Of a stretch of DNA of 64,000 bases, positions 35,660 to 41,377 are shown piece by piece. Both the position numbers and the translations under genes were made by a program. A model generated the notes under the pieces. That model did no database searches. It was not told the DNA's origin and saw only the letters and a list, made by a program, of their open reading frames with translations. The DNA comes from Liolophura sinensis (Eukaryota; Mollusca; Polyplacophora; Chitonida; Chitonidae). The stretch covers positions 12,526,001 to 12,590,000 of the forward strand of contig NC_088307.1 in assembly GCF_032854445.1 (NCBI RefSeq), given 5' to 3'. Every line of letters starts with the position of its first letter. Within the stretch, counting starts at the first letter, position 1.

Positions 35660-35862
35660 TTAGGCTATTCTGTTCGACAGCCTGAACAATTTTCCACACT
35701 CTTTTCGAAATTCCATATTGTACACACCGTATATCAGTGGATTTGCAAATTTAGAGATGAGAAAACTATGGAAGATTACAATTCTTAAAATCCCCAGTGT
35801 TTTGCGGTGGTTATGGGATTGTTCCCAGTCTACTACGATCCCTGAAGCACGAACCGCCATAT
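35660..35862 (-). pseudogene. GPCR C pseudogene, helix 7 and tail
   Basis: Right-hand piece (in protein order the last) of a receptor split by the composite element: MAVRASGIVVDWEQS, then SFLISKFANPLIYGVYNMEF with an intact NPxIY motif and the stop at 35660-35662. It connects exactly with the part ending at 40450. With the element and one ATAT removed, CWLPY runs straight into MAVRASG, matching CWLPF-VFIRFSG of the intact paralogues. Confidence 0.85.
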
Positions 35863-36315
35863 GGCCTCGGACCCCCATTAATTTTCCATAAGCGACAATG
35901 TTAACGTCTAGCGCTGTAGCTCAGTCCCAAACATTCCGTGGCCATTAAGCTTTGGTGCATACCTGGCCCAGCCTGTGAGAAAGAAGCCATGAAAATCTTG
36001 ACATAGGTTGACCGTCAAAATCTGGACCTTTTCATGCCGTCAGCTGGGAGGCGTGCCTAGCAACGCCAAGGGGACGTCACTCGCAGCCTCATCACTACCT
36101 CACACCTTGTGTCCTCTCGCCCAGAATTTCAAACTTTCATCAATAAAGCTCATACCTCCTCAAAGTTTAGACAGTTTCCAGCATTTTAATACCAAGCATG
36201 CACCTGTGCACCAAAAATGGACGCCTGGGAGCAAAAAAAGACTTTATACCCTAAAATTCACAGAACTACAATCGTCCCTACCGAAAAACGGAAGTTGTAA
36301 TGGGGGTCTGTGTCC
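35863..36315 (+). repeat. Terminal direct repeat, left
   Basis: 453 bp, same length as the right repeat and differing from it at three positions by eye (catgaaa/cataaaa, tttt/tttc and ccgtcag/ccggcag). Contains AATAAA on plus (in 'tcatcaataaagctc') and TATAAA on minus (in 'tagggtataaagtc'). No reading frame of note. Confidence 0.9.
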
Positions 36316-37284
36316 TATCACACCAGCCACCTTTTTTCAAAATCAATAATTTTTGCACCACACAATTCCTGACACTTCTGAACCTCACAGGCAAAATTAG
36401 GGCTTGATACATGCAGAAACTTTGGAGTTGAATGAATTCAAGTTGGGGTACCCCCATCTTGAACATGTGTCTTTTTTCCAGGGTGAAAAAACTCTGAGGG
36501 GTAAACTTTGAAGCCTTGCAGTGCATATACCGTTCGAGATATCTCCATCAGGTCAACTGTTTTGGAAAGACAAGATGTTTATCTGCAAGAAAAGTTAAAA
36601 AAATCACATTGACAGAGCACTTTAGACTTTTCAAAAGCAAACATTTAGAGAAATATACATTTTTAAGAAGACTTTTCTACTCAGAGCAGCTTTAAATATC
36701 AAAGTTACAAGCCAAAAGTGTCAAAGCATACATCAAAATATAGGTAATTTATCTGACAATTAAATGTCAAAATATAAGACATTTACTTCAGCAACTATGT
36801 GAAAAAAATTGACTGACAGTGTGGTAGGGGGTATCAAAGCGGATTGTCACGATTTCAGAACAATCACTTGTGACCAAAATCAAAGCAAGAATAATGCCTC
36901 AAGGTGATAAAGACCTAATCACAGGCACTTTTTTAGTGGACAGGACTTAAGAAAAGACTAGTATCCCAGTTCCCCACTGAATAACATGATGAAACCCTTT
37001 AAAAGACCACCCAGCCAGGCACCCCCCCCCCCCCTGCCCTCCTCCCCCATGACTGCTGATTGGCTGACCAGCTCACCATGCAAAAACCTCCCTGCACCAT
37101 TGCTGTTGTCTCACAGCAGGTTATTACTCTGCACAGTAACATCAAAGGGTGTCACATTGGCATCTACAATATATAAACAGAGAGGAAAAATATGAATTTA
37201 ACATTTCCAATCAGGCAGCCACCAAGTACACCTATATTGGTCAGTCTGACAGTTAACAAGGCAAACAATCTACCCCAAAACACC
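36316..37284 (+). promoter_or_regulatory. Transposase 5' region
   Basis: No gene is recognised here. A TATATAA motif at about 37170 lies roughly 115 bp before the preferred transposase ATG and only 22 bp before an earlier in-frame ATG (37192). A transcript starting about 30 bp past the TATA box would exclude the earlier ATG. A C13-14 run sits at about 37022. Promoter role is inferred from position only. Confidence 0.3.
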
Positions 37285-39246
37285 ATGAAGGGAGACAGAA
37301 AGAGGAAACAGTCTAGATTTCAAGCTGGAAAGGCCCAGAATGGCTCAAATAACCTGTCAGCAGTTACAGACATGCTGAATCCTGTGCCTGGGTGTTCCTT
37401 GATGGACACAGATTTCCAGCCCAATCAGGAGGCTGTAAGAACACACCAGCCTGACACAAAGAGAATACAGCGGCCAAGACGGTGCAAGGTAGATTCCACG
37501 GCTGGATCAGACAGAGATACACATGAGCGGGAATGGGCTGCTGAAGGAATGCGACTCATAGATATACAGAAAATGGTGTGTATATGGAACAAAGTTATGC
37601 TTGAGCACAGTGAGACCAAGGACCACTGTCCACTGCCCAGGTTAGAGATAGCTGCAGAGAAAAAGTGGGGTTTAGCCTGGGCGTTCAGTTTTAAGTGCTG
37701 TGACTGTGACTATGTATCTGGCTTCCACAAATTCTACAAAGAGGTAGAATGCAACAGACCTGGCCAAAAAGCTGCGGCGGTGAACCGAGCTCTTCAAGTA
37801 GGCCTCCAGGACACACCAATGGGGAACACCCGAGCCAGACTCCTATTTGCAGCGATGGACGTGCCGCCTGCCACTCGTAGGAACATGCATCGCACTGCAA
37901 ACCATGTCGCATCTGCAATCGCAAAGCTGAACAGAGAGGATATGGCAAATAAGGTGGGAGAGGTAAAGGCATACAAAAGGCAAAGAGGAGAGGATGACAG
38001 CACAATAGATCTGGCCACAGACACTCGCTACAACAGCATTACCATAACCAGTCCCAAGAAACCGGGCCAGAATGCTTCACAAGCAATTTCCCTGGCTGTG
38101 GAGACATCAACAGACAAGCAATACATTGTCTCCGCAGCACTGAAGAATAAATTGTGTTGGACTGGGTCCTGGCTAAGAGGAAAAGGCTTCCAAGTAAAGT
38201 GCCCTGGAGGACACGAGGAGTGCACAGCGAACACAAACCCACATGCCCCCTGGTCCGAGTATAATATGGGGAACGAGATTGGCGAGGGATTGGCGAGGCA
38301 AGGTGTTTTAGCCAAACATGTAACCACAGACGGCGACTCCAGGTCAGCCAAGGGAGTGGAGGACGGCATCCGACTGGTCGAGCCACTGTGGGAGGTCGAA
38401 CGGTTAGCAGACCCCACGCACCTTGGTAGATCCCAGTTCAAGAAATGTAACCAGGCTAAGTTCAGCGATGCCATGTTCGAAGGACAGGGCCGAACGAGGG
38501 AAGCCAGGAAGAAAGCACAGAAGGTGTTGAGTCAGGATGTTAAGGCCAGGTGTAGCTTGATATTTTCTCAACTTATGTCTGAGCACATTGGTGACATGAG
38601 GAAAATAAAAACTTGCCTACCCAGGGTTGTGGATGCAACGGTCAGGTGTTACGGTGGGGACTGTTCCAAATGCCGCAGGAACAGTGTGGTTTGCTCCGGA
38701 GGGGAAACCAGCAGCTGGTGGGAGAGGTCCCTGTTTTTATCCACCAGTAAACTCTGCCCTTTTATCATGGATGACAACGACAGGAAACTATTGACCGAAG
38801 TACTGCACATGAGGTTGAGCGAGACAGCCGTCACCAGTCTCCGGATGAACACCAGCACTCAAAAGTGCGAAGCTGTCAATAGATCACTCAGCGTCTCCTT
38901 GCCCAAGAATGTAAACTACAGCAGAAATATGGAGGGAAGGGCGGCGTCCACAATCCACAGACTTAACAATGGCCAGGACAAGTCCACGGCTGCCAAACTC
39001 CAAGCTGTCGGCGCCAGTATTTCACCTAGGAGCGAGAGAACAGTACAACAGATTGAAAGGGTGAACCAGTACCACAAGGTTTATAAGAAGCGACAGACAG
39101 TTAAGGGGAGATCACTCCGCAATACAGCCAGAAAACTTCGAGAGCACATTGAGTACAGGCTTTCAAATCCAGAAGAAAAAACTGACTATGCCAAGGGACA
39201 ACTGGACAACACCCAAACAGATCACACATACACTAGATATTTGTAA
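37285..39246 (+). CDS. Mutator-like DDE transposase, intact
   Basis: 653 residues from MKGDRKRKQSRF. An in-frame ATG at 37192 adds 31 less basic residues. The N-terminus is basic with the F-x-G-K/N-Q-type start seen in this family. A CCDCDY cluster (about 138-143) precedes NRALQVGLQDTPMGNTRARL and TRRNMHR. Candidate catalytic residues: Asp about 246 in LATDTRYNS, Asp about 349 in VTTDGDSRSAKGV (family signature DGDS), and Glu about 529 in TQKCEAVNRSLSVSLPKNV. A CxxxxCxxC...C cluster (about 455-470) lies between the second Asp and the Glu, and HRLNNG follows. This order and these motifs match what I remember of invertebrate proteins annotated as Mutator-like transposase domain. It would cut and join DNA at the element's ends in the nucleus. 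No stops or shifts, so it may be functional. It lies tail to tail with the nuclease gene, 108 bp apart. Confidence 0.8.
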   Translation: MKGDRKRKQSRFQAGKAQNGSNNLSAVTDMLNPVPGCSLMDTDFQPNQEAVRTHQPDTKRIQRPRRCKVDSTAGSDRDTHEREWAAEGMRLIDIQKMVCIWNKVMLEHSETKDHCPLPRLEIAAEKKWGLAWAFSFKCCDCDYVSGFHKFYKEVECNRPGQKAAAVNRALQVGLQDTPMGNTRARLLFAAMDVPPATRRNMHRTANHVASAIAKLNREDMANKVGEVKAYKRQRGEDDSTIDLATDTRYNSITITSPKKPGQNASQAISLAVETSTDKQYIVSAALKNKLCWTGSWLRGKGFQVKCPGGHEECTANTNPHAPWSEYNMGNEIGEGLARQGVLAKHVTTDGDSRSAKGVEDGIRLVEPLWEVERLADPTHLGRSQFKKCNQAKFSDAMFEGQGRTREARKKAQKVLSQDVKARCSLIFSQLMSEHIGDMRKIKTCLPRVVDATVRCYGGDCSKCRRNSVVCSGGETSSWWERSLFLSTSKLCPFIMDDNDRKLLTEVLHMRLSETAVTSLRMNTSTQKCEAVNRSLSVSLPKNVNYSRNMEGRAASTIHRLNNGQDKSTAAKLQAVGASISPRSERTVQQIERVNQYHKVYKKRQTVKGRSLRNTARKLREHIEYRLSNPEEKTDYAKGQLDNTQTDHTYTRYL

Positions 39247-39354
39247 CCGCCAATTTTGTATATAATTTGTCACTGCTGTTGTTGCTTATGAAAGAAATTA
39301 AAAAATGATAACAGAAATTGAGCAAAATCTAAAACAATCTGTTATTTATTATTT

Positions 39355-39738
39355 TTAATGAGGGGAAACCAACCTGCTCAGTCTTAAATGCAACATGCAA
39401 CTTGCATACTGCCCATGGCCGAGACAGCAGTGCTGCCTGTTATTGTTAACACAATGTGATTCCAAGCTTATGTGGTCCACATTTACACAGCGTGTGTTGT
39501 GGCACACGTGTGAACAATCAAGCTTGGGATCTAAATGTGACAGCCCCTGTCTGGCCATATAAACAAGTCTACTGATGTGTTTCTTCTTCCATCGATGTGT
39601 GACGGGGTCTTTGTAGGAGGCAAGACCATATCGACCATCCCTCGTCAATGGTCCAGTCCACACTCGACAGGCTCCGTTTTCACTATAAACACTGAAACTT
39701 TCAATTTTTGCAGCAATTTCTGCTCTGAACGTCTCCAT
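39355..39738 (-). CDS. His-Me finger (zinc-loop) nuclease
   Basis: 127 residues from METFRAEI. CRVWTGPLTRDGRYG (about 24-38) is the usual entry strand of homing-endonuclease zinc-loop proteins. HISRLVYMAR follows. The core LDCSHVCHNTRCVNVDHISL (about 73-92) holds Cys75, His77, Cys79, His80, Cys84 and His89 in the spacing of the I-PpoI-like His-Me family (active His, zinc ligands, Asn-x-x-His). Then NNNRQHCCLGHGQYASC provides further Cys/His ligands. By family it should nick or cut DNA with a metal ion. It is complete, with AATAAA just past the stop on minus (about 39346). Inside the composite element and convergent with the transposase, so probably co-mobile. It could assist transposition, bias inheritance by cutting empty sites, or be a domesticated passenger; which is not decidable from sequence. 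Confidence 0.8.
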   Translation of the reverse strand: METFRAEIAAKIESFSVYSENGACRVWTGPLTRDGRYGLASYKDPVTHRWKKKHISRLVYMARQGLSHLDPKLDCSHVCHNTRCVNVDHISLESHCVNNNRQHCCLGHGQYASCMLHLRLSRLVSPH

Positions 39739-39996
39739 TTTCAAGCGTAGGAATACTAGAACGTTGCATGTTGTTCATTTCAGGATGCCTATACACATGC
39801 TACCCTACGCTGAACAGCATTTTACCGATTTTTCATCAAAATGGATATTTTCAAAATGTAAATAGCCCCAAGAAGCTATGAAACGGCCCAATCAATGCAA
39901 AACACATCACAGACATACCCACCAAAAATTATCAGGCTGCTGCGAAATCTAAGCGCATAGTGACATTTTTCACATTTTGGTGACTTCGTCAGTACA

Positions 39997-40449
39997 GGCC
40001 TCGGACCCCCATTAATTTTCCATAAGCGACAATGTTAACGTCTAGCGCTGTAGCTCAGTCCCAAACATTCCGTGGCCATTAAGCTTTGGTGCATACCTGG
40101 CCCAGCCTGTGAGAAAGAAGCCATAAAAATCTTGACATAGGTTGACCGTCAAAATCTGGACCTTTCCATGCCGGCAGCTGGGAGGCGTGCCTAGCAACGC
40201 CAAGGGGACGTCACTCGCAGCCTCATCACTACCTCACACCTTGTGTCCTCTCGCCCAGAATTTCAAACTTTCATCAATAAAGCTCATACCTCCTCAAAGT
40301 TTAGACAGTTTCCAGCATTTTAATACCAAGCATGCACCTGTGCACCAAAAATGGACGCCTGGGAGCAAAAAAAGACTTTATACCCTAAAATTCACAGAAC
40401 TACAATCGTCCCTACCGAAAAACGGAAGTTGTAATGGGGGTCTGTGTCC
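39997..40449 (+). repeat. Terminal direct repeat, right
   Basis: 453 bp copy of the left repeat. Its right end is the insertion border next to ATAT at 40450-40453. Confidence 0.9.
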
Positions 40450-41206
40450 ATATACGGTAACCAACATATGACGTAAGTTCCGGTCATCAGAGATACCGTC
40501 GTGGTGGCTTTGCTAGATGATTCCCCGGATGTTGTCCTGTGCGCAGTGGAGGTGATGTTGGCTGGTTTACAGTTGGTAATTTTTCTGACCTGCTTTAATA
40601 TTTTGTACTGACAAATTGCCATTGTCATCGAACTGGGTAGTGACACCAAAACAAACAATACAGCAGTGCAATACATTGCTTGTTGGCTGGCTGTAAACTG
40701 TATTTGACAATGGCGCGTATAAGAATTGTGCCCATAAAATTGACACCCAAGTGTCAGACACAATGACAGAATGGCGGGAAACAACCGGCAAAATCCAATA
40801 ACAAACGCGCACCGGCGAGGAGTAGCCATATTTGAATACTGTAGCGGTCTGCAGCAAGCAATGTAACAGTCCAAACTAATCGCCCCCATTAAATACAGCT
40901 CACCACTTCCGTAGAAAATTGAAAAGAACACATACACACCACAAGCTGGTAGACTTAAGGCCGCGTCGCCTCTAATCCGCTGTTGTGGATAAAACCCGAC
41001 ATTAGATAAACAAGCCAGAAGGTCTTCCACAGCGAGAGCAGACACCAAGTAGTAGGTAACTCTGTGTAAGACCGGTCTCTTGTAGACTGTCACAAGCAAA
41101 ACACGATGTTTCCAACGATAGCCAAGTGTGAACCAATAGCGAAGAGAACGTATTGGGTGACGACAACTCCAGTAGAGAATCCATCTGTTTGAGTCGAGTT
41201 GTTCAT
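40450..41206 (-). pseudogene. GPCR C pseudogene, N-terminus to helix 6
   Basis: Begins MNNSTQTDGFSTGVVVTQ and continues through helix 1 to VGNIV. A net 2-bp change at about 41105 shifts the frame. The text resumes LLVTVYKRPVLHRVTYYLV, SALAVEDLLAC, then LDCYIACCRPLQY (DRY motif changed to DCY) and ends VICWLPY at the insertion. It is related to GPCR A1/B1 but clearly diverged (about half identical by eye). Opposite in direction to the array GPCRs. Since both the frameshift and the insertion break it, which came first is unknown; the DRY change hints at earlier relaxation. Confidence 0.85.
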
Positions 41207-41377
41207 TTTGCCTGCCGTTCAGATCGAATGAACTTCGATCGATTTTACGCTATCACTTACAATGGTGATTAAAACTGATCGGATTATATATTTCTGATAT
41301 GGATATGAATATTCACTGTCATAACTAAACCATACATATATATTCATGTATATTCACTGCCTCTACAAATTATAATA

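Follow-up and report, generated by a model that had tools for sequence, protein, structure and literature searches.

Architecture and coding content of the element

We analysed a 64,000-nucleotide stretch of the genome of the chiton Liolophura sinensis (NC_088307.1, contig C13 in our numbering, positions 12,526,001 to 12,590,000 of the forward strand; hereafter the window), which carries a DNA transposon organized as repeat-interior-repeat (Table 1). Its two direct repeats, R1 and R2, are 453 bp each, have the same orientation and differ by three substitutions, all of them private to R1 when 113 copies of the repeat (R) from this genome are compared. Each R has an 18-nt inverted repeat at its ends, which is 83% complementary, has GG..CC termini and includes an 11-bp GACCCCCATTA core. 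Automated repeat finding in the window reported 300 nt of the R1/R2 pair at 99%. Immediately outside the element, ATAT is present on both sides.

The interior contains two convergent genes. The 684-amino-acid (aa) open reading frame (ORF) on the plus strand is a Mutator-like transposase (Pfam PF20700, E 1.5e-76), in which pattern matching located a DPTH motif of the C/DxxH type at residue 407 and a CCHC-like zinc motif from residue 322; both motif definitions were taken from the main text of PMC9587614, and the residues named here are candidate catalytic residues. The 129-aa ORF on the minus strand corresponds to PF05551 (E 7e-8), a His-Me nuclease, and all five of its matches among solved structures were to I-PpoI, weakly (best E 0.012). 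No Pfam match above the cut-off was obtained for the 148-aa interior ORF or for the three ORFs of 81-113 aa lying over R1/R2, for which DUF4722 stayed below threshold at E 0.04-0.05. No reverse transcriptase was found among the interior ORFs scanned (transposase, nuclease and the 148-aa ORF), and a long terminal repeat (LTR) element was rejected for this reason. An earlier reading of the stretch, made from its letters without database searches (the sequence-only reading), had described the two 453-bp repeats with three differences, their imperfect inverted termini with an 11-bp core, the two intact convergent genes and the outer ATAT; all of this is confirmed here.

Table 1 Features of the transposon in window coordinates
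Feature	Position	Strand	Basis
Left target-site duplication ATAT	35859..35862	.	sequence
Left long terminal direct repeat (LTDR, R1), 453 bp	35863..36315	+	repeat comparison
Left inverted end of R1 (GG.. terminus)	35863..35880	+	inverted-repeat pair
Right inverted end of R1 (..CC terminus)	36298..36315	+	inverted-repeat pair
Internal region (INT), 3681 bp, first bases TATCACA, last CAGTACA	36316..39996	+	
DDE transposase, 684 aa	37192..39246	+	PF20700, motifs
His-Me (His-Cys box) nuclease, 129 aa from TTG; first ATG two codons in	39355..39744	-	PF05551
Right LTDR (R2), 453 bp	39997..40449	+	repeat comparison
Left inverted end of R2	39997..40014	+	inverted-repeat pair
Right inverted end of R2	40432..40449	+	inverted-repeat pair
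Right target-site duplication ATAT	40450..40453	.	sequence

Paired repeats, solo repeats and arrays across the genome

The genome (632 contigs, 609 Mb) was searched with both parts of the element. The DNA searches scored the best 40 of 2071 candidates for R and the best 40 of 417 for the interior, so that copy counts are lower bounds, and flanks were fetched for part of the matches only. The exact right end of R (17 bases) occurs 663 times genome-wide and the exact R-interior junction 188 times, with 0 occurrences of the reversed-pattern control in either case, and 26 of 78 transposase matches cover the whole protein without a stop. We limited the R set to those aligned from positions 1-3 to 450-453, leaving out truncated or split Rs (for example at loci L012, L043, L106 and L111), while L084 and L085 gave no pair. 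The resulting 113 complete Rs form 41 left/right pairs, namely the window, 38 other R-interior-R loci (including six of a subfamily B and two arrays), and L098 and L099, which are not simple pairs and were excluded as test pairs and from the side-inheritance count described below.

The outer 4-mers are exactly equal in 33 of the 41 pairs, whereas 1000 shuffles of left against right flanks gave 1.9 such pairs on average and never more than 7. Solo Rs, counted with those adjoining an interior excluded, likewise have an exact 4-bp duplication in 16 of 19 cases. The first base is A in 35 and the last base T in 41 of the 49 exact duplications, among which the TTAA specificity of the classical Kolobok target is absent. 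The inner flanks are nearly invariant: TATCACA follows R1 in 39 of the 41 pairs, and R2 is preceded by CAGTACA in 33 and by CAGATCA in 5. Full-length copies with 4-bp duplications, of the kind described in the sequence-only reading, exist elsewhere in the genome. The arrangement which that reading had set against its own, an interior with termini and target duplications independent of the repeats, was looked for and not seen: the inner junctions are constant and both interior ends adjoin R in 14 of 14 other elements of a first set with left and right flanks fetched separately (one right R enters Ns), and an independent interior was therefore rejected.

Older copies of the same structure are present at L045, at L121 (AGTA on both sides) and, damaged, at L043, whose interior is 89% like that of the window; in further damaged copies (L041, L042, L044, L122 and L124-L126) a complete R is missing on one or both sides. 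At L089 (C13:27282180-27289380), the interior copy is broken near position 880 by about 3.5 kb of other DNA.

The six subfamily B copies (L092-L097), chosen by same-strand R ends about 2.9 kb apart, have an R 91-93% like the window R. Their interior gives a piecewise alignment (about 65-75%) in which parts of the transposase are absent, and subfamily B looks non-autonomous from its sequence. In the comparison of L092 with the window element, R windows were 89-98% alike, whereas interior windows were 83% alike directly behind R1 and, where well aligned, lay mostly at 56-77%. As judged from these alignments, R behaves as a separate module, alike between subfamilies where the interior is far less so.

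Arrays are a minority among the fetched loci, and their lengths are given as assembled, the average read being shorter than the arrays. The C9 array consists of five Rs and four interiors with AGGT outside, and four of its five Rs are identical, the fifth differing at one site. On C12, an R-interior-R-interior-R array with CAAT outside contains an assembly gap. A long subfamily B array on C7 has 11 exact R-interior junctions and unmatched outer flanks; within it, at L115 (C7:32956100-32966000), three non-autonomous interiors follow one another without R, and at these interior-interior joins R and five further bases are gone and one ATCA is left.

The insertion site in the window was also informative. 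In the right flank, on the minus strand, a rhodopsin-type G-protein-coupled receptor (GPCR) gene (PF00001, E 1.2e-26) is interrupted at the element. When the flanks are joined and one ATAT is omitted, a stop-to-stop frame of 332 codons is open across the join and reaches into an NPLIY-containing segment, so R-interior-R occupies one site, which would have been free of R while the gene was intact. This points to a single insertion site, with which two-step entry is still compatible. The element splits the GPCR gene before the NPLIY segment, the two parts being window 35663-35862 and 40454-41249 on the minus strand. An assembly error is unlikely and was rejected, because the arrangement recurs at many loci and the HiFi reads of the source assembly, as given in its description (mean 8,347 bp; PMC11068029), are on average longer than the 4.6-kb element.

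Assignment to KolobokP

By architecture, domains and motifs, the window element is assigned as an intact, recently active KolobokP of the form LTDR-INT-LTDR. KolobokP, an animal DNA transposon lineage of the Kolobok superfamily, was described by Kojima and Bao in 2022 (PMC9587614), whose main text gives this architecture in seven phyla, with direct repeats of about 450 or 660 bp and inverted ends of 11-18 bp, and reports solo LTDRs, multimers, INT-INT joins and excision. The sequence-only reading treated such an architecture as not known to be described, which is incorrect, as the structure, its solo repeats and its multimers were already in print. The chiton family resembles KolobokP in an LTDR that is about 450 bp long and has short inverted ends of its own and RR..YY termini, in the length of its duplications (3-5 bp in KolobokP, 4 bp here), and in a transposase on the plus strand with an I-PpoI-like His-Me nuclease on the minus strand. 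The likeness extends to solo LTDRs and (LTDR-INT)n-LTDR arrays with outer duplications (here the solos and the C9 and C12 arrays), to LTDR-(INT)n-LTDR arrays whose INT-INT joins lack a few bases, and to non-autonomous families.

The difference lies in the host. Neither 'chiton' nor 'Polyplacophora' occurs in the main text of PMC9587614, and Polyplacophora is not in its Table 1; as far as that text goes, the element is a new KolobokP family in an unlisted host class, the architecture itself being already published. In a literature search covering titles and the starts of abstracts of the papers listed, with preprints and most subscription journals outside its scope, no other eukaryotic DNA transposon of this architecture was found, and the name KolobokP appeared in PMC9587614 alone. 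As far as assembled copies can tell, the present comparison contributes evidence on what keeps the two repeats alike.

Similar organizations exist in other elements. LTR retrotransposons share two direct repeats that are alike at birth (as is probable here), solo repeats and short target duplications, and the resemblance to LTR/solo-LTR behaviour proposed in the sequence-only reading is borne out; unlike them, the chiton element has a DDE transposase and inverted ends on its repeats, and no reverse transcriptase among the interior ORFs scanned. A repeat-interior-repeat plan, with repeats that have their own inverted ends, is also found in bacterial composite transposons with direct insertion sequence (IS) copies, whereas the chiton element carries its genes in the interior, keeps one fixed orientation and is sustained as a family. 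Pseudo-compound transposons and translocatable units of IS26/IS6 share direct repeats, arrays and a proposed one-repeat circle. However, the IS26 transposase lies inside the repeat, whereas that of the chiton element is in the interior, the R ORFs scanned having no Pfam match above the cut-off.

The two repeats are probably identical at insertion

R1 and R2 of the same copy are much more alike than Rs of different copies, differing at a mean of 1.48 sites compared with 4.4-4.7 between copies (33 subfamily-A pairs; 0 of 2000 permutations as low). Across 39 pairs there are 58 R1/R2 substitutions, of which 39 are private to their copy and the other 19 recur, in 13 cases in a single further R; another 75 alignment columns differ by gaps between R1 and R2, mostly in L045 and L080. 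To follow inheritance by side, R alleles carried by at least two A copies were counted per copy-cell. Both Rs carried the inherited allele in 55 of 58 A copy-cells, in 6 of 6 in B and in 241 of 250 for A and B together. Of the three one-sided A cells, two concern site 171, where L060 and L082 differ in the side affected, and the third is site 53 in L082; no R variant was clearly inherited on one side only among the copies compared. In many young copies R1 and R2 are identical. Because inherited variants stand in both Rs, differences are mostly private and many young copies have identical Rs, it is probable, on copy comparison, that the two Rs are identical at the start of each insertion.

Such identity would speak strongly against both mechanisms put forward in the sequence-only reading as the main route. 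The first, movement of the composite as a unit by its outermost ends, is considered here without any step that would equalize R1 and R2; in this form it agrees with the outer duplications, the constant inner junctions and the single insertion site revealed by the GPCR frame. It predicts one-sided inherited R mutations, yet A has just the three one-sided cells, and same-side sharing with another pair is confined to three cells at two alignment sites, between distant copies. This mechanism is contradicted within our sample, and we consider it very improbable. The second is entry of a circle of R plus interior into a resident solo R by homologous exchange, with which we grouped nuclease-induced homing. 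Such capture is one of the routes proposed in the main text of PMC9587614, and it is in keeping with the abundance of solo Rs bearing the same kind of duplication and with the homing-type nuclease encoded in the interior. However, it predicts that R1 and R2 are reciprocal mosaics, different wherever resident and circle differ, whereas young copies mostly have identical Rs. Capture by a resident R is compatible with the data if resident and circle Rs were identical; as the main route it is disfavoured, and we regard it as improbable.

Identical Rs could also result from cut and paste if gene conversion often acted between R1 and R2 of resident copies, since copy-specific variants found in both Rs could have arisen after insertion in this way. 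We examined this in 17 A and 6 B copies, with private interior substitutions as a clock. The A copies have 286 such substitutions, alongside 38 one-sided and 13 two-sided private R changes, for which 70.4 one-sided changes would be expected if all were post-insertion and 35.2 two-sided changes if all were pre-insertion. In the five B copies other than the old L096, which together have 71 private interior substitutions, there is 1 one-sided R change compared with 26.2 expected if all were post-insertion, and there are 10 two-sided changes compared with 13.1 expected if all were pre-insertion. The one-sided share varies among copies beyond chance (1/5000 shuffles).

Contrary to what continuing gene conversion would produce, old copies retain one-sided R changes (11 one-sided to 0 two-sided in L082, and 8 to 2 in L096), and the two-sided private share is lower, not higher, in old copies than in young ones, although the test is modest (P 0.02 to 0.05). 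The ratio of one-sided to two-sided changes was 33:7 in old A copies and 5:6 in young A copies (Fisher P 0.02), and a 1% cut gave P 0.001. Taken together, these counts modestly favour the view that the Rs are identical when inserted and then decay independently, like the repeats of LTR elements, over continuing gene conversion, which we consider quite unlikely.

Replicative insertion of a one-repeat circle as a possible route

How might two identical Rs be produced at each insertion? In the cycle that we propose, the transposase would recognize R, inverted ends included, as its unit. When the two Rs of a resident copy recombine, a solo R would stay behind and a circle of one R plus the interior would be released. 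The transposase would then join the one R of the circle by both its ends to a new target, at positions staggered by 4 bp, and replication through R, as in Shapiro cointegrate formation, would insert the whole circle and copy R. The expected product is target-R-interior-R-target, in which the Rs are identical and in direct orientation and the target is duplicated over 4 bp on the outside.

Cointegrates yield direct repeats only. In the fetched copies the R pairs around an interior are in direct orientation, nearly all A copies having been picked by interior or R matches regardless of orientation and the six B copies not being counted for this purpose. Composites, in contrast, may have either repeat orientation, as noted in the main text of PMC9587614. 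We tentatively favour replicative, cointegrate-type insertion of a one-R circle because the R pairs around an interior are direct, because outer 4-bp duplications occur together with within-copy likeness of the Rs and inherited alleles in both of them, and because B copies show a one-sided deficit, old copies carry one-sided changes and R is conserved beyond the interior. Both the circle and the replicative step are inferred, as is, from copy comparison, the identity of the Rs at birth. Extended to the lineage as a whole, KolobokP might be a cointegrate-forming animal DNA transposon, with a one-repeat circle inserted replicatively and R-by-R recombination returning the circle and leaving a solo; this broader statement is offered with still more caution.

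Several points weigh against this interpretation. The circle, its junction and transposition itself are deduced from assembled sequence, and we know of no eukaryotic DDE transposon shown to form cointegrates. The outer 4-mers are unequal in 8 of the 41 pairs: the duplication is 5 bp long in L096, there is a one-base mismatch in each of L066 and L070 and a one-base offset in L045, L036 and L076 are unmatched, and L098 and L099 are not simple pairs. The age test is modest, reaching P 0.05 with a single per-site cut for A and B, its cuts were picked after the data were seen, and 'private' depends on the sample. L096, with 123 private interior substitutions, has 8 one-sided changes compared with 45.4 expected and 2 two-sided compared with 22.7, a deficit on either reading, and R may also evolve more slowly than the interior. 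A pathway that cuts at R exists, as indicated by the C7 interiors joined without R and by the LTDR excision inferred in the main text of PMC9587614. Finally, repeated expansion and contraction of arrays before a monomer moves could give identical Rs as well.

This last process belongs to the dual route of Kojima and Bao, in which the transposase moves LTDR-INT-LTDR by cut and paste, and arrays are built up and shortened by unequal crossover, either spontaneous or induced by the nuclease, a turnover that keeps the Rs alike before a monomer leaves. Such array turnover is the main rival to the one-R circle. Unequal crossover is proposed in the main text of PMC9587614, where transposition is combined with induced unequal crossover or, alternatively, a solo LTDR is entered by a circle. 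In the chiton, arrays with outer duplications exist on C9 and C12, together with the long C7 B array, and the Rs of the C9 array are nearly uniform. However, arrays are a minority of the fetched loci, yet identical or near-identical Rs are common in young monomers. Moreover, by our reasoning, unequal crossover leaves the outermost R segments unmixed, and turnover would be needed in nearly every lineage between moves. We consider the dual route somewhat unlikely.

In the main text of PMC9587614, the authors state that the molecular pathway of KolobokP is unknown and regard the maintenance of its composite structure as speculative; the word 'cointegrate' is absent from that text, which, as far as it goes, includes no test of left against right Rs. 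Identity of R1 and R2 at birth would hint at how the composite structure is kept. If the Rs start identical, the pathways are narrowed to those in which one repeat serves as template for both, and a replicative, circle-based animal DNA transposon becomes a testable idea, for which the chiton genome, with its many near-identical copies, is well suited.

Other loci

A few further loci resemble the element in part. L098 (C1:56713230-56719560) has the form R-X-R with an X of 5.2 kb and was considered as a third cargo. This was rejected, as the long matches of X occur only at that C1 locus and both Rs have the same flanks; the search used the first 3000 bases of X and scored the best 40 of 10572 candidates, the other matches being short repeats. 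The locus is apparently a local tandem duplication of unrelated DNA containing R. L116 was rejected as an inverted composite, since its two opposite-oriented Rs have no interior match over 60 bp between them.

Among other PF20700 elements, no self-repeat was found in L051. L048-L050 are bounded by inverted repeats of 21-26 bp, at which long direct repeats are lacking; in L049 and L050 these ends include TTAA, which fits classical Kolobok elements. Eight loci around weaker PF20700 matches are decayed copies of the window element's family. Three similar decayed transposase copies lie on C21 (at 59476, 214625 and 374595), spaced about 155-160 kb apart, and probably reflect large duplications.

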